Below are positions 1,666 to 7,115 of a DNA stretch of 8,038 bases, piece by piece. The notes below the pieces were generated by a model, which had not been told where the DNA came from, did no database searches, and saw only the letters and a program-made list of their open reading frames with translations. Source of the DNA: Candidatus Woesearchaeota archaeon (GTDB lineage: Archaea; Nanobdellota; Nanobdellia; Woesearchaeales; ARS49). The stretch covers positions 1 through 8,038 of the forward strand of contig DAOVMP010000013.1 in assembly GCA_030630695.1 (NCBI GenBank). The letters are read 5' to 3'. The translations under genes were made by a program, and so were the position numbers. Positions within the stretch are counted from its first letter, which is position 1; each line of letters starts with the position of its first letter.

Positions 1666-2808
1666 ATGAAAAAAGTCTATCTAGATAATGCCGCAACTAC
1701 ACAAGTAGCTAAAGAAGTAGTTGAAGTTATGCAGCCTTATTTTTTAGAAAAATATGGTAATGCTTCTTGTCTGCACTCTTGGGGGCAGGAAGCAAGAGAT
1801 GCTGTTGAACAGTCAAGAAAGGTTATTGCTGAAAAGATAAATGCAGAACCTGAAGAAATAATTTTTACTGGCGGAGGTTCTGAATCTAATAATTTGGCAA
1901 TTAAAGGAACTGCTTTTCAATTAAAAGATAAGGGAAATCATATTATTACTTCTGAATTTGAGCATCCTGCTGTTTTAAATATTTGCAAAGCTTTGGGAAA
2001 AAAAGGTTTTGAAGTTACTTATGTTGCTATTGACAAAAACGGTTTTGTTAATCTAGAGCAATTAAAAAATTCTATTACAAATAAAACTGTTTTAGTTTCG
2101 ATAATGCATGCAAATAATGAAATAGGAACAATACAAAACATAAATGAGATAGGAAACATTTGCAAAGAAAATAATATTGTGTTTCATACTGATGCTGTTC
2201 AGTCTTTTGCTAAAGTTCCTATTGATGTTAAAAAAGAAAATATAACCTTAGCTTCTTTTTCAGCTCATAAACTGCACGGCCCTAAAGGAATTGGGGCATT
2301 ATACATAAAAAAAGCCACAAAACTGAAAAAACAGATTGATGGCGGACATCAAGAGTTTAATCAAAGGTCTGGAACAGAAAATGTTCCTGGAATTATTGGT
2401 TTTGCAAAAGCTGTTGAAGTGATAACTGAAAAGAATATTGAAAATATTACTGAATTTCGTAATTATCTTATCAATGAATTATTAAAAATCAAAGGAACAG
2501 CTCTTAATGGCAGTCAGGACAATCGATTATGTAATAATGTCAGCATTTCTTTTAAAAATGTTGAAGGAGAATCAATTTTATTGTCTTTGGATGACAAAGG
2601 AGTTGCAGTTACAACTTCTTCTGCTTGTACTTCTTCTAAATTAGAGTCAAGTCATGTGTTAAAAGCAATTGGTTTAAAATCAGAAGACGCACACGGCACT
2701 ATAAGATTTACTTTAAGCAAATACACAACTAAAGAAGAATTAGACTACACAATTGAATCTGTTAGAGGAATCATTAAAAAATTAAGAGGTATTTCTCCTT
2801 TAAAATGA
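1666..2808 (+). CDS. iscS: Cysteine desulfurase, IscS/NifS type (class V aminotransferase fold)
   Basis: PLP enzyme that removes sulfur from L-cysteine, giving alanine and an enzyme-bound persulfide for Fe-S assembly and tRNA thiolation. It has 380 residues, within the usual range. Visible motifs: YLDNAATT near the N-terminus; TGGGSESNN (68-76); EFEHPAV with H100; the PLP-binding segment HTDAVQS (D176, Q179); the Schiff-base lysine K202 in SAHKLHGPKGIG; RSGTEN (234-239); and catalytic C321 in TTSSACTSSKLE on the longer group I active-site loop. Group I enzymes work with IscU scaffolds, and iscU follows directly with a 4-base ATGA overlap. As first gene of a thiolation operon, it probably supplies sulfur to IscU and to the thiolase. 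Confidence 0.96.
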   Translation: MKKVYLDNAATTQVAKEVVEVMQPYFLEKYGNASCLHSWGQEARDAVEQSRKVIAEKINAEPEEIIFTGGGSESNNLAIKGTAFQLKDKGNHIITSEFEHPAVLNICKALGKKGFEVTYVAIDKNGFVNLEQLKNSITNKTVLVSIMHANNEIGTIQNINEIGNICKENNIVFHTDAVQSFAKVPIDVKKENITLASFSAHKLHGPKGIGALYIKKATKLKKQIDGGHQEFNQRSGTENVPGIIGFAKAVEVITEKNIENITEFRNYLINELLKIKGTALNGSQDNRLCNNVSISFKNVEGESILLSLDDKGVAVTTSSACTSSKLESSHVLKAIGLKSEDAHGTIRFTLSKYTTKEELDYTIESVRGIIKKLRGISPLK

Positions 2809-3179
2809 GTTTTAAATATTCTGATGAGGTTTTAAAGCGCTTTCGTAATCCTGTAAATGCAGGTAAAATAGAAAATCCTGGCGGTGTAGGTGTAGTTGGC
2901 AATAGAAATTGTGGAGATGTAATGCATTTATACCTTAAAGTTGAAAATAATGTGATAAAAGATGTTAAATTTGAAACATTGGGCTGTGCAGCGGCTTTGG
3001 CTTTTTCAGATTTATTATGTGATATTGCAAAAAATAAAACAATTGAGCAAGCATTAAAAATAACAAAAGATGAGTTGGTCAAAGAGTTAGGTGGCGTTCC
3101 TGCACCTAAATTGCATTGTTCCTTATTAGCTGTTGATGCATTACATAAAGCAATTGAGGATTTTCAAAAGAAAAAATGA
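2805..3179 (+). CDS. iscU: Fe-S cluster assembly scaffold IscU (NifU N-terminal family)
   Basis: Scaffold on which Fe-S clusters are built from IscS persulfide and iron. It has 124 residues, normal for IscU. The three ligand cysteines are present: C36 in NRNCGDVM (with the conserved Asp at 38), C61 in GCAAALAF, and C105 in KLHCSLLA. The N-terminal YSDEVLKRFRNPVNAG is typical. The usual GCGSAIAS is GCAAALAF here, and there is an extra Cys at 72. The ATG overlaps the iscS stop (ATGA at 2805-2808), with GAGGT at 2786-2790 about 14 bases upstream, suggesting translational coupling. In this operon its likely client is the Fe-S-type thiolase two genes downstream (inference). Confidence 0.95.
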   Translation: MSFKYSDEVLKRFRNPVNAGKIENPGGVGVVGNRNCGDVMHLYLKVENNVIKDVKFETLGCAAALAFSDLLCDIAKNKTIEQALKITKDELVKELGGVPAPKLHCSLLAVDALHKAIEDFQKKK

Positions 3180-4027
3180 GTTCTATCATTGTCCGATACT
3201 CTGAAATCGGACTTAAAGGAAAAAATAGAATTATGTTTGAGCGAAAATTAATTAATAATATAAGATCCTGCTTAGATAGGAATAAAATTAAGTTTACAAG
3301 CATACGAAAACCCCATGGAAGAATATTAATTTTTGGGATTAATGATTGCAAGCAATTAAATTGTGTTTTTGGTATAAGTTCTTTTTCAAAAGCAGTTAAT
3401 GTTGGCTTTAATATGGATGAAATAAAGCAAAAAGCATTAGATTTGGTAAAAGAAGGTATAACAAATAAATCTTTTTGTGTAAAATGTCAGAGATTAGACA
3501 AAAATTTTCCTGTTAAATCTCCAGATTTCATGAGAGATCTTGGTTCTTTTATACAATATCATACAAAAGCAAATGTTAATTTGAAAAATCCCGATGTAAT
3601 TCTATACGCGGAAATTATCGACGGAGATGTTTACTTATTTACAGAGAAAATAAGAGGTCCAGGAGGTCTTCCAGTAGGTGTTGAAGGAAATGTTATTGTA
3701 ATAGTTGAAGATGAATCTTCTCTATTATCCTCTCTTCTTATGTTAAAACGTGGCTGTAATGTTTTTTGTGTTGCAAAAGAAAAACACAGTATAGATTTAT
3801 TGTCAAAGTATGTATATGGTTCTAAAGTCGAGCTTAAAATCTTAAAAAGCGATAAAGAAATTAAAGATTTTGCAAAAGAAAAGCGATCAAAAGCAATTAT
3901 TGTGAATGATACTTTAGATTCTATTCAAGAACGCCCTTATACTCTTCCAATCTATCGCCCACTCTCTACATTTAATGAAAAACAAATCGAGGAAAAGCTA
4001 AATGAGTTCAGAAAACGAGTTTGTTAA
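3176..4027 (+). CDS. thiI: ThiI-like THUMP protein with a degenerate PP-loop domain
   Basis: Related to ThiI, which makes 4-thiouridine at tRNA position 8. 283 residues. The N-terminal ferredoxin-like region (1-~70) opens with IIVRYSEIGLKGKNR. The THUMP domain (~75-165) keeps the LDKNFPVKSPDF and VNLKNPDVILYAEI patterns. GGLPVGVEG (163-171) marks the normal entry to the ATPase domain. There the SGGxDS PP-loop is missing: VIVIVEDESSLLSSLLMLKRG (173-193, split by no gap) sits where ThiI has an ATP-binding loop. A short remnant with LPIYRPL (257-263) follows, and there is no rhodanese domain. So it has RNA-binding parts but probably no adenylation activity. Eight cysteines, including C101xxC104 in THUMP. 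It overlaps iscU by ATGA, has GAGGA at 3156-3160, and overlaps the next gene by 26 bases. Decayed pseudogene is the alternative, but the frame is intact. Confidence 0.85.
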   Translation: MSSIIVRYSEIGLKGKNRIMFERKLINNIRSCLDRNKIKFTSIRKPHGRILIFGINDCKQLNCVFGISSFSKAVNVGFNMDEIKQKALDLVKEGITNKSFCVKCQRLDKNFPVKSPDFMRDLGSFIQYHTKANVNLKNPDVILYAEIIDGDVYLFTEKIRGPGGLPVGVEGNVIVIVEDESSLLSSLLMLKRGCNVFCVAKEKHSIDLLSKYVYGSKVELKILKSDKEIKDFAKEKRSKAIIVNDTLDSIQERPYTLPIYRPLSTFNEKQIEEKLNEFRKRVC

Positions 4028-4868
4028 GGATTTTGAAAACAAAATTACAGATACGATTAAGGAGTTTGATTTAATCAGTCCAAAAGATAAACTATTAGTA
4101 GCTGTTTCAGGTGGTAAAGATTCAACAGCAGTTCTTTACGTTCTAAAAAAGCTCGGTTATAAAGTTGAAGCATTAACAATTGATGTGATAATCGGTAAAT
4201 ATACTGAAGAAAACCTGAAAAATATTCAAGAGTTCTGTAAAACACAGGATATTAAACTTCATACTGTATCCTTTAGAGAAGCGTATGGTGCTGCTTTGTG
4301 TCACATAGTAGATTTGATTAAATCTAGGGGTTGGAATTTGCAGTCTTGTACTGTTTGCGGAGTTTTAAGACGATACTTGGTTAATTTATACACTAGAAAA
4401 TTAGGTGCAACAAAAGTTGTTACAGGTCATAATTTAGATGATGAAGCTCAGGCATTCATGATGAACTTGTTAAAAAACAAGCAGGAAATGAATGCAAGAC
4501 TTGGATCTGCGCCAGGATTGATTAAAGATTCAAAATTTGTTCCTAGAATAAAACCTTTATACTTAACTAGTGAGAAAGATGTTGAAAAGTATTCAAAAAT
4601 AATGAATTTTCCTGTAAAGTATGGCCGATGCCCTTGTGCAGTTGATGCTTACAGAAATTATATTAGAAATATGTTAAATGATTTAGAAAAAGATTACAAA
4701 AACATTAAAGAAAACATAATCGATTACCTTCTAAAAACACTTCCAGACTTAAAAGCGAAATTCAAAACAGATAAAAAATTAAATGCTTGTAAAGAGTGTA
4801 AAGAACCTTCAAGATCAGAAGTCTGCAGAACTTGTCAAATCTTAGCGTTTGTAAAGAAGCCGAGTTGA
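4002..4868 (+). CDS. ttuA: TtuA/NcsA-family tRNA thiolase lacking the N-terminal zinc finger
   Basis: PP-loop tRNA 2-thiolation enzyme of the TtuA/NcsA/Ncs6 (CTU1) family, which adenylates a uridine and swaps oxygen for sulfur using a [4Fe-4S] cluster. 288 residues. Visible: PP-loop VAVSGGKDS with SGGKDS at 36-41; cluster cysteines C116 and C119 (SCTVCG) and C210 in GRCPCA, with C212 as an extra; GHNLDDEAQ (142-150); RNYIRNMLNDLE near 220; C-terminal zinc finger C263/C266/C275/C278. Family members usually start with another Cys/His zinc finger, and this one does not: an in-frame TAA (3999-4001) abuts the ATG, so it cannot be extended upstream. GAGGA at 3989-3993 gives a well-spaced ribosome site. 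Whether the target is U34, U54 or U8 cannot be read from sequence. Confidence 0.9.
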   Translation: MSSENEFVKDFENKITDTIKEFDLISPKDKLLVAVSGGKDSTAVLYVLKKLGYKVEALTIDVIIGKYTEENLKNIQEFCKTQDIKLHTVSFREAYGAALCHIVDLIKSRGWNLQSCTVCGVLRRYLVNLYTRKLGATKVVTGHNLDDEAQAFMMNLLKNKQEMNARLGSAPGLIKDSKFVPRIKPLYLTSEKDVEKYSKIMNFPVKYGRCPCAVDAYRNYIRNMLNDLEKDYKNIKENIIDYLLKTLPDLKAKFKTDKKLNACKECKEPSRSEVCRTCQILAFVKKPS

Positions 4869-4874
4869 GTGAAG

Positions 4875-4884
4875 CTTTATAAGG
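4875..4884 (+). promoter_or_regulatory. TATA box of the aldose epimerase gene
   Basis: CTTTATAAGG is centred about 37 bases before the ATG at 4917, in the 48-base gap after the thiolase gene. It predicts a start near 4905 and a short leader of about 12 bases without a clear Shine-Dalgarno. This makes the epimerase a separate unit, not the fifth gene of the sulfur operon. Confidence 0.6.
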
Positions 4885-4916
4885 TTAGAACACATCTAAT
4901 AATATAAGAAATTAAA

Positions 4917-5777
4917 ATGTCAAACCAAATTAATTTAAGAGACAGAGACCTTAGTGCAAGGGTAAATCCAGAGAATGGACAGTTAGTTAGTCTTAGCTTA
5001 GGCATAGTAGATTTTTTTCACAATGGCGGCAGTCCTACTTGGCAAGGAAATGGTTGGAGTAATTCTGAGATTGTTCCGTTTCCAGTGTTTGGGCCTGTAA
5101 AAGATTATCGAGTAAAAGTTGGAGATCAAGAATTTTCGTTAGATCAACATGGAATCGCAAGACATACATCCCCGCTTCCGTTTATTGTTCAATCAACTGG
5201 CGAAAATTATGTAATTCTATTACAAGAATATGATGGAAAAGATATAGTTAACTCCAAATTTAAACCAGATAGTGGAAGGCCCGAGAGAGTAAAATGGCTT
5301 CCCTATACACTTGAAAAAAGTTTCAGACTTATAGAAGATTCCTTACTTTGTGAATTAACTATTACTAATCAATCAAAAGTCGAGATGCCTTATATGATTG
5401 CATGGCATCCCGCGTTTAATGTTTTGGGTTTTATTAAAAATAATGTTTTTCTTGATGAGGCCGGAAAAGAATTAGTAAGTTTAGAACAAGTTATTAAAGC
5501 TTCTCAAGGTCCAAAAGCAGCTCTTGCTCTTGAAGGAATAAATTTCATTAAATATCAAGATAGAAAATCAAGTTTAGGGGTAAATGTTTCGAGTAATGAT
5601 TATTCAAATGTTATACTTTGGAGTCCTGGCAGAGATGCAGGAATGGTGTGTATTGAACATACAAGTCAATTACCGGTTATTAAAGGCCAAAATTATTTTT
5701 CTGAATCTAAAAAGTTTGAAAGATTGGCTCCAGGAGAGAAACGAAGTTATAAAATTAAAGTAAAACCTTTTAAATAA
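4917..5777 (+). CDS. Aldose 1-epimerase-family protein (mutarotase fold)
   Basis: Probable sugar mutarotase, interconverting alpha and beta anomers of an aldose, in the GalM/LacX/YeaD group. 286 residues with no signal peptide, so cytoplasmic. Expected catalytic elements are present: H78 and R82 in DQHGIAR, H164 in AWHPAF, and the general-base glutamate E247 in VCIEHTS. The FPVFGPVKDYRV region and the C-terminal LAPGEKRSYKI, which resembles the LxPGE end of such proteins, also fit. At under 300 residues it is closer to the LacX/YeaD subgroup than to GalM, so the substrate could be a free or phosphorylated hexose. No sugar pathway genes are nearby. It converges on the RsuA-family gene with one base between stops. 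Confidence 0.85.
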   Translation: MSNQINLRDRDLSARVNPENGQLVSLSLGIVDFFHNGGSPTWQGNGWSNSEIVPFPVFGPVKDYRVKVGDQEFSLDQHGIARHTSPLPFIVQSTGENYVILLQEYDGKDIVNSKFKPDSGRPERVKWLPYTLEKSFRLIEDSLLCELTITNQSKVEMPYMIAWHPAFNVLGFIKNNVFLDEAGKELVSLEQVIKASQGPKAALALEGINFIKYQDRKSSLGVNVSSNDYSNVILWSPGRDAGMVCIEHTSQLPVIKGQNYFSESKKFERLAPGEKRSYKIKVKPFK

Positions 5778-5778
5778 A

Positions 5779-6459
5779 TTATCTCTTAAACATCAACCCT
5801 TTCAACTCATACTTTTTCAAATACCGCCAGGTGCCTTTTCCAAGTTTACCCAATTTAAGTGGTCCTATTTGAGTTCGACGTAATTTTGTAACATTATAGC
5901 CCATATTGCCAAACATTTTTCTAACAATATGTTTGCGGCCTTCATGAATTTCAAGAACAACAGTTTTGCCGCGGATACTTTTAATTCGTGGTTGAACTTT
6001 AACTCTATCTATAACAATTCCTTTTTTAATTTTCTCCAGAGATTTAAAGGGTTTGCTTAGCCATACTTCATATTTTTTCCAAACTTCCTTAGAAGGATGC
6101 ATTAATCGGTTGGATAATTCTCCGTCATTTGTTATCAAAAGTAATCCTTCTGTATTCTTATCCAGCCGACCAACAGGAAATAATCGTTCTTTTACTTTAA
6201 TCAGTCGCATTACTGTTTTCATTCCATGCTGTTCACTAACAGTTGTTACATATCCTACTGGTTTATTCAACATGATATACACTTTTTCTTCTTTTTTAAT
6301 CAATTTGCCATCAACAGTTATTTTATCTGAAAAAGAAGCAGTATCTCCTAGTTTGACAATAGCATAATTAATTTTAACTCTTCCTTCTTTAATTAGTTCC
6401 TCACATTTACGTCGAGATGCAATCCCTGCTTCTGCCATGATTTTTTGAACTCGTTCCAT
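5779..6459 (-). CDS. RsuA/RluB-family pseudouridine synthase
   Basis: Isomerises a uridine in rRNA to pseudouridine. 226 residues. An S4 RNA-binding domain is at ~1-48 (MERVQKIMAEAGIASRRKCE opening). The catalytic domain has IMLNKPVGYVTT (62-73), the signature GRLDKNTEGLLLITNDGE with nucleophile D100, the RLMHPSKEVWKKYEV segment, and EGRKHIVRKMF (173-183). I start it at 6459, not the in-frame ATG at 6480: the family begins at MERVQK, and the minus-strand TATA element at 6483-6491 lies 28 bases upstream, so the message would start at this ATG; 6480 would lie upstream of the transcript. The family is essentially bacterial and most archaea rely on Cbf5/H-ACA and Pus10, which suggests transfer into this lineage. 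rRNA target unknown. Confidence 0.9.
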   Translation of the reverse strand: MERVQKIMAEAGIASRRKCEELIKEGRVKINYAIVKLGDTASFSDKITVDGKLIKKEEKVYIMLNKPVGYVTTVSEQHGMKTVMRLIKVKERLFPVGRLDKNTEGLLLITNDGELSNRLMHPSKEVWKKYEVWLSKPFKSLEKIKKGIVIDRVKVQPRIKSIRGKTVVLEIHEGRKHIVRKMFGNMGYNVTKLRRTQIGPLKLGKLGKGTWRYLKKYELKGLMFKR

Positions 6460-6481
6460 ATACCTAATAAACAAGGACAAA

Positions 6482-6512: not shown

Positions 6513-7115
6513 ATGAAAGATATTGTTATGCCTAAAAATAATGAAAAGGAGTTCATAGATATGGCTAAAAAATTAGGTTTTAAAGAATTAGTTTTTTTAT
6601 ATATTCACAAAAATATGTTTTACAAAGGAAAGCAGGATATAAAGATAACAAATGCTTTGATAGCAGATGAGAAAAAGACACAAAAAGACATAAACACTTT
6701 TGTTAAAAATCCTAAAGATGCCAGATTAGCTTTTGAAAAAGCAAGACCGATTTGTGTTTTTGATTTAGAACTGCAAAAAAGAGATTTTATGCATCAGAGA
6801 GGTTCTGGTTTTAATCATATTATGGCGAAATTCGCAAATCTAAATAATATTCATGTAGGTTTTTCATTTAGCACAATTTTAAACGCGTCTAAATTGCAGA
6901 GCGCAAGAATTATCGGAAGAATTAAACAGAACATTATGCTCTGTAGAAAGTATAAAGCTAAAACAGTAATAGCATCTTTTACTGCAAATCCTTTTGATAT
7001 GCGAGCTCCTAAAGATTTGATAGCATTCTTCACAACCGTGGGCATGCATCCTAAAGAAGCAAAAGATTCTATAAATAGGTCTTTTAAGAAAAAATTAAAA
7101 ATAGAATTAGCATAA
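6513..7115 (+). CDS. rnp3: RNase P protein component 3 (Rpp30)
   Basis: Protein subunit of archaeal RNase P, which removes 5' leaders from pre-tRNAs; Rpp30 normally pairs with Pop5 to support the catalytic RNA. 200 residues with a TIM-barrel-like PHP-derived fold. Recognisable segments: DIVMPKNNEKEFIDMAKKLG near the start, DFMHQRGSGFNHIMAKFA in the middle (usual form HHRNSGLNHVL), FSFSTILNAS, IGRIKQNIMLCRKYKAKTVI and the MRAPKDLIAFFTTVGM segment near the end. ATG 6513 is chosen because the TATA centre is 26 bases upstream and no Shine-Dalgarno is present. The other RNase P proteins are not in the window. Its last 9 bases overlap the end of the opposing cysteine-repeat gene. Confidence 0.92.
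   Translation: MKDIVMPKNNEKEFIDMAKKLGFKELVFLYIHKNMFYKGKQDIKITNALIADEKKTQKDINTFVKNPKDARLAFEKARPICVFDLELQKRDFMHQRGSGFNHIMAKFANLNNIHVGFSFSTILNASKLQSARIIGRIKQNIMLCRKYKAKTVIASFTANPFDMRAPKDLIAFFTTVGMHPKEAKDSINRSFKKKLKIELA

Follow-up and report, generated by a model that had tools for sequence, protein, structure and literature searches.

ThiI, the textbook single-gene tRNA enzyme, is probably made in two pieces in the Candidatus Woesearchaeota archaeon whose DNA we analyzed: a pseudo-ThiI (ThiI-N) and a stand-alone ThiI PP-loop protein (ThiI-C), encoded on different contigs, would be the tRNA-binding and catalytic subunits of a two-gene ThiI and would jointly make s4U8. The window, by which we mean the whole stretch of 8,038 nucleotides that was analyzed, carries the gene for ThiI-N; the gene for ThiI-C lies on another contig (C54) of the same genome (G000). 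The features on which the argument turns are as follows.

1666..2808, + strand: NifS/IscS-type cysteine desulfurase (Aminotran_5, 2.5e-86), opening the apparent operon
2805..3179, + strand: IscU/NifU_N Fe-S scaffold (PF01592, 1.6e-39)
3176..4027, + strand: ThiI-N, a pseudo-ThiI of 283 aa, predicted tRNA-binding subunit
3185..3388, + strand: NFLD of ThiI-N, residues 4-71 (PF22025; 4kr6 alignment)
3410..3643, + strand: THUMP domain of ThiI-N, residues 79-156 (PF02926, 1.7e-14)
3686..4024, + strand: degenerate PP-loop domain of ThiI-N, residues 171-283, a possible dimerisation stub
4002..4868, + strand: TtuA-like tRNA 2-thiolase, 288 aa, with SGGKDS and CxxC plus a further C
Contig C54 of G000, 4781-5422: ThiI-C, a stand-alone ThiI PP-loop protein of 213 aa (PF02568, 1.4e-67)

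The pseudo-ThiI and its operon

The gene order NifS-IscU-pseudoThiI-TtuA is apparently that of one operon: the 3' end of the NifS/IscS gene overlaps the start of IscU by 4 bases, the 3' end of IscU overlaps the start of ThiI-N by another 4, and the ThiI-N and TtuA-like open reading frames share 26 bases. The NifS/IscS product, which scores 515.6 bits against the NCBIfam model FeS_nifS, slightly below the cut-off of 530.75, is the likely sulfur source, and IscU has three cysteines of the scaffold type (in NCGD, GCAA, and HCSL). Farther downstream lie a weak aldose-epimerase-like protein below the Pfam cut-off (4917-5777, + strand), an RsuA/RluB-type pseudouridine synthase (5779-6480, - strand), and RNase P p30 (6513-7115, + strand). 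Inspection by eye located a similar pseudouridine synthase ORF 3' of TtuA, on the opposite strand, at loci L105, L056, and L057 and a p30-like ORF 3' of TtuA at L106 and L109; L105 has no aldose-epimerase-like ORF in the corresponding place.

The original prediction described a ThiI-family protein that keeps the NFLD and THUMP regions and has lost the SGGxDS loop, and this was confirmed by the PF22025 and PF02926 matches and by an alignment in which ThiI-N reads EDESS at the SGGxDS position. The protein also matches Pfam ThiI_fer (8.8e-17), and its match to the NCBIfam ThiI profile (TIGR00342; 153.1 bits, below the cut-off of 264.5) covers positions 1-203 of 373 only. The degenerate PP-loop domain contains no SGGxDS, no GQVASQT, and no catalytic-cysteine loop, the protein ending before the last of these. 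The predicted structure (pLDDT 94.3), to which PH1313 and ThiI are the top PDB hits, matches PH1313 (1vbk) over its full length and aligns to residues 4-332 of the ThiI chain. Residues R7, K14, R18, and R49 of ThiI-N correspond in the 4kr6 alignment to R10, K17, R21, and R46 of Thermotoga ThiI, all of which are kept.

The loss of SGGxDS is not a sequencing accident, because the motif S[GS]G.[DH]S occurs in none of the best 120 of 481 ThiI-N matches, the window's own protein included. Among 37 ThiI-N proteins, K17 is kept in all, R21 in 34 (with Lys in 2 others), R46 in 34, R10 in 28 (with Lys in 5 others), and K19 in only 17; at the catalytic positions, G184 and Q291 are kept in none, and C344 falls in a gap in all 37.

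The stand-alone catalytic half and its distribution

A complete ThiI elsewhere in the genome would have counted against the original prediction; our ThiI searches found none in the assembled part (the genome is 65.7% complete), but when G000 was searched for ThiI domains, the stand-alone catalytic half on C54 was recovered. ThiI-C bears the motifs SGGIDSPVA, TGDCLGQVASQT, and PYPDCC; it keeps SGGIDS and the GQVASQT loop, and its C168, the second Cys of PYPDCC, aligns with the catalytic cysteine of Thermotoga ThiI, Cys344. It has no tRNA-binding domains. Its match to TIGR00342 spans profile positions 174-371 (230 bits, below the same cut-off as for ThiI-N), and the PDB entry closest to its model (pLDDT 90.1, pTM 0.88) is ThiI, with a TM score of 0.90 by query length. 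Residues S182, G184, D186, S187, G286, and Q291 are each kept in all of 34 ThiI-C proteins; the PP-loop has a strict SGG in 25 of them and S-x-G instead in the other 9, and a Cys stands at the aligned C344 column in 24. Residue retention in the 37 ThiI-N and 34 ThiI-C proteins is thus complementary, the one keeping what the other has lost. The CxxC motif, described as a mark of the Fe-S ([4Fe-4S]) class of archaeal ThiI (PMC5372739, PMC9957541), is present in 18 of the 34 ThiI-C proteins and absent from that of the window genome. Public records for P0130, P0135, P0138, P0145, and others give ThiI-C the name "7-cyano-7-deazaguanine synthase," which is probably a misnomer, and those for P0126 and others call it a hypothetical protein.

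Across the class, 188 genomes were searched with one ThiI profile, and full-length, N-half, and C-half proteins were separated by the profile range matched, the halves being sorted by hand from match rows that extended down to an E value of about 1e-11. One genome, G025, was left out because its ThiI was read as one full-length gene broken at contig ends. In the remaining 187 class genomes, each half occurs in 37: both are present in 34, the N-half only in 3, the C-half only in 3, and neither in 147 (Fisher p 2.4e-30). The C-halves of G022 and G133, which are contig-edge fragments, and that of G104, which has internal stops and was counted as C only, enter these figures and were left out of the trees. 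Neither half occurs in any of the 61 genomes counted as having full-length ThiI, and another 21, among the 123 genomes that gave any ThiI match, matched only weakly (best E no better than 4.3e-16); these were classed as having no clear ThiI. A third, divergent ThiI-like ORF of 442 aa (L101:4737-6065) accompanies the two halves in G041, and a divergent long ThiI-like ORF of 489 aa occurs in G079 (L102:3-1472). The association is repeated within the window's family (26 genomes, from which G213 was dropped, its full-length ThiI being likewise broken at contig ends): both halves are found in 6 genomes, the N-half only in G221, the C-half only in G217, and neither in 17, so that a C-half accompanies 6 of 7 N-halves and is present in 1 of 18 genomes lacking an N-half (p 0.0003). 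Of the 14 named genomes that carry an N-half (at least 2 of them already in the class set), a whole or fragmentary C-half is found in 10; G194, G195, G188, and G200 of the named set seem, on their identical coordinates, to duplicate G016, G148, G220, and G214. The Woesearchaeota assembly with locus tag GF358 has both the N-half (00705) and the C-half (00535).

In 6 of the 34 genomes that have both halves (G015, G030, G033, G041, G049, and G127), these are found within 5 kb of each other, where 0.38 such genomes would be expected at random (P 2.9e-6), although the six are not independent events, G033 and G049 being members of one genus and G041 of the same family; in G033 and G049, the halves are divergent neighbors with less than 40 bp between them. 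In the other 28 genomes, the distance exceeds 5 kb or the halves fall on separate contigs. A relaxed search left six genomes in which an N-half is present without a recognizable C-half (G016, G148, G159, G189, G190, and G221), the best PF02568 match in the six being 7.2e-7 and inside other frames; G016 is given as 100% complete and G221, of the window's genus, as 92%.

A quick tree places three C-halves (G000, G164, and G010) within full-length ThiI of the cysteine type, away from the other 31, and a single origin of all C-halves is disfavored (AU test with the 34 as one clade, p 0.008, a question posed of the quick tree after it had been seen). The N-half tree does not decide between a single clade of N-halves (p 0.345), that clade joined by G180 (p 0.707), and a placement of the family's N-halves with full-length ThiI (p 0.311). 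When the stubs alone were compared, the dead domain of the window ThiI-N resembled 27 of the 36 other N-half dead domains, 1 of 34 C-halves, and 1 of 31 live PP-loop domains of full-length or odd ThiI. The stub comparison favors one N-half family, and there are hints that the catalytic half may have been replaced in the window's lineage. The full-length, CxxC-type ThiI of G180 (L032:1459-2670), which is followed by TtuA and the N part of which groups with the N-halves with weak support, may resemble the unsplit ancestor. A wider scheme can be imagined in which the thiolase is modular, with ThiI-N as an adaptor for exchangeable catalytic subunits: ThiI-C would have been replaced in the window's lineage by a half from a full-length ThiI of the cysteine rather than the CxxC type, and the adaptor would also serve the overlapping TtuA-like enzyme. 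We regard this full scheme as unlikely.

The TtuA-like neighbor and competing readings

The gene that follows ThiI-N was said to overlap it by 26 bases and to encode a protein with an intact SGGKDS loop and Fe-S cysteines, and the open reading frames and an alignment with PH0300/TtuA (3vrh; 2.5e-44) bear this out: SGGKDS occupies residues 36-41, and the CxxC cysteines C116 and C119 are accompanied by C210. The protein scores 198.8 bits against NF049949, below the cut-off of 450 and with a match that begins at profile position 23, and 154.2 bits against the NcsA model; it has the C-terminal zinc-type cysteines and no N-terminal zinc finger.

From this overlap, the original prediction drew a pairing in which the TtuA-like enzyme receives tRNA from the pseudo-ThiI and performs the chemistry that ThiI has lost. 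The adjacency that it anticipated in relatives was recovered, with direct overlap of the two genes in G010, G135, L105, and L115 and, judged by match positions, in G221; same-strand pairs occur in G010, G135, and G096 and at 8 of the 14 named N-half loci, although an opposite-strand ORF intervenes in 5 of those 8. Within the window's family, TtuA accompanies 6 of 7 N-halves and is found in 2 of 18 genomes without one (p 0.001), an association somewhat weaker than that between the N-half and the C-half, and three of the N-half genomes that lack a recognizable C-half (G221, G189, and G190) have TtuA adjacent or near. At the class level, however, there is no such association: TtuA is present in 26 of 37 genomes with an N-half and in 114 of 150 without (p 0.53), in 55 of the 61 with full-length ThiI, and in 58 of the 86 with no clear form of ThiI; 9 of the genomes that carry the two halves lack a TtuA at E <= 1e-20. 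Outside its genus, the TtuAs nearest that of the window in our TtuA searches, with 57% (G119), 55% (G208), and 53% (G139) identity, are in genomes for which the ThiI searches gave no match at 1e-10 (G208) or none better than 1e-11 (G119 and G139). TtuA also lies directly 3' of an intact ThiI at 4 of 20 full-length loci, drawn with 1.5-kb flanks from the 61 full-length genomes (G076, G026, G070, and G180), and within 200 bp 3' of a C-half in G121 and G064. Its own candidate carrier, a TtuB-like ORF of 63-82 aa with an SGG end, precedes TtuA at 10 of 19 relatives' loci with a TtuA match of E < 1e-30, the gap being no more than 3 nt at nine of them and 227 nt at the tenth. Because a dedicated ThiI catalytic half exists and tracks the N-half, and because TtuA is unlinked to the N-half at the class level and also stands beside intact ThiI, we consider TtuA quite unlikely as the partner. 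The idea of a pseudo-ThiI with a separate catalytic subunit survives, as a deduction, and the choice of TtuA for that role probably does not: the TtuA-like protein is very probably no replacement for the lost domain of ThiI and is likely a separate 2-thiolase that draws on the sulfur and Fe-S supply of the operon.

The carrier ORFs of the TtuB/ThiS type upstream of TtuA are at L036:5828-6019, L050:217-420, and L058:3711-3914 and in L060, L071, L073, L087, L090, L092, and L100; in L071 and L087, the ORF sits between the ThiI C-half and TtuA.

It is similarly improbable that one tRNA adaptor, the N-half, is shared between ThiI-C, which would use it for s4U8, and the TtuA-like enzyme of the window's family. 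The conserved gene overlap in the family is compatible with such sharing, as is the finding that the four TtuAs of the family that were read at their start (G000, G010, G135, and L105) have neither an N-terminal zinc finger nor a TtuB-like ORF directly before them; there is no TtuB in the window and no convincing one in the 65.7% complete assembly of its genome (best E 0.08, with an approximate query sequence). Against it, some genomes with no N-half (e.g., G119, G139, and G081) likewise encode a TtuA that lacks the zinc finger, and the usual TtuA target, U54 of tRNA, is a different site from U8. A pseudo-TtuA of the window genome (contig C117; L011:2955-3470), a 171-aa protein with an N-terminal CxxC finger and no SGG loop, recalls Ctu2/Ncs2 and belongs to a conserved family of 40 proteins found, GF358_01140 among them, none of which has SG[GT].DS. 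As a zinc-finger partner for the window TtuA, this protein was rejected, there being no association with TtuAs that lack the finger in 39 genomes (6/13 versus 8/26, p 0.48).

That the pseudo-ThiI is a decaying, functionless remnant would suit its lost catalytic motifs and is very improbable, given a conserved open frame with 25 invariant columns across 28 aligned sequences, a fold predicted with high confidence, and the strong co-occurrence with the C-half.

A probable two-gene ThiI and known systems

Solved ThiI is described as a homodimer, joined mainly via its PP-loop domains, in which a tRNA bound by the NFLD and THUMP of one subunit extends to its partner's active site (PMC4041423). Because the homodimer works in trans, paired subunits could divide the active site and the tRNA-binding domains between them, and the retention of a folded but dead PP-loop domain in the N-halves fits a pairing of N with C. 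A heterodimer of ThiI-N and ThiI-C is the natural reading, and we infer that complex formation and s4U8 synthesis are likely. In such a complex, the NFLD and THUMP of ThiI-N would grip the acceptor stem and CCA end of the tRNA, and the dead PP-loop remnant would pair with the live domain of the C54 protein in the manner of the two PP-loop domains of homodimeric ThiI; U8 would then be adenylated and afterwards sulfurated in the ThiI-C active site, with sulfur from the NifS of the window operon carried as a persulfide on C168. The persulfide route is the likelier one here because the ThiI-C of the window genome has no CxxC and NifS leads the operon.

If ThiI is indeed encoded in two genes, annotation can miss the capacity for s4U8 in a large archaeal group, because the C-half goes under the 7-cyano-7-deazaguanine synthase name in several public records and the N-half resembles a dead ThiI. 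Such an arrangement would let the holding of tRNA and the chemistry be studied apart, and it gives PH1313 a testable role. The parts themselves are known, PH1313 as an N-half type and PRK08349 as a PP-loop family; among the papers listed by a search that had subscription journals and preprints outside its range, none names a split, two-gene ThiI in its title or the beginning of its abstract. The occurrence of split genes in DPANN archaea is noted in PMC8407392.

The known relative of the N-half type is PH1313 of Pyrococcus horikoshii, labeled "ThiI-like," the structure of which (PDB 1vbk) was released in 2005. Its activity is given as unconfirmed in PMC9957541, which says that several ThiI homologues are frequent in Pyrococcus and, in the part relied on here, names no partner for PH1313. 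Compared with ThiI/TtuI itself (TIGR00342; 4kr6 of Thermotoga maritima and 2c5s of Bacillus anthracis), which is one gene and a homodimer, the window genome has two genes and a predicted heteromer, the products of which together span the whole profile. A stand-alone ThiI-like PP-loop protein is likewise represented by NCBIfam PRK08349 (NF006222), a "hypothetical protein" model of 198 positions and a family that we take to be that of the Thermococcales; the C54 ThiI-C matches its positions 2-193 with 182.5 bits, below the family cut-off of 251. The TtuA-TtuB system touches the window through the TtuA-like neighbor, which has a TtuB-like ORF before it at the relatives' loci counted above and none in the window, and which, on the favored reading of a two-gene ThiI, stands outside the split enzyme. 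In Ctu1/Ctu2 (Ncs6/Ncs2) and Tan1-NAT10, too, a catalytically dead or tRNA-binding partner aids an active tRNA-modifying enzyme; those systems involve other families and other sites, whereas the dead partner in the window genome derives from ThiI itself.
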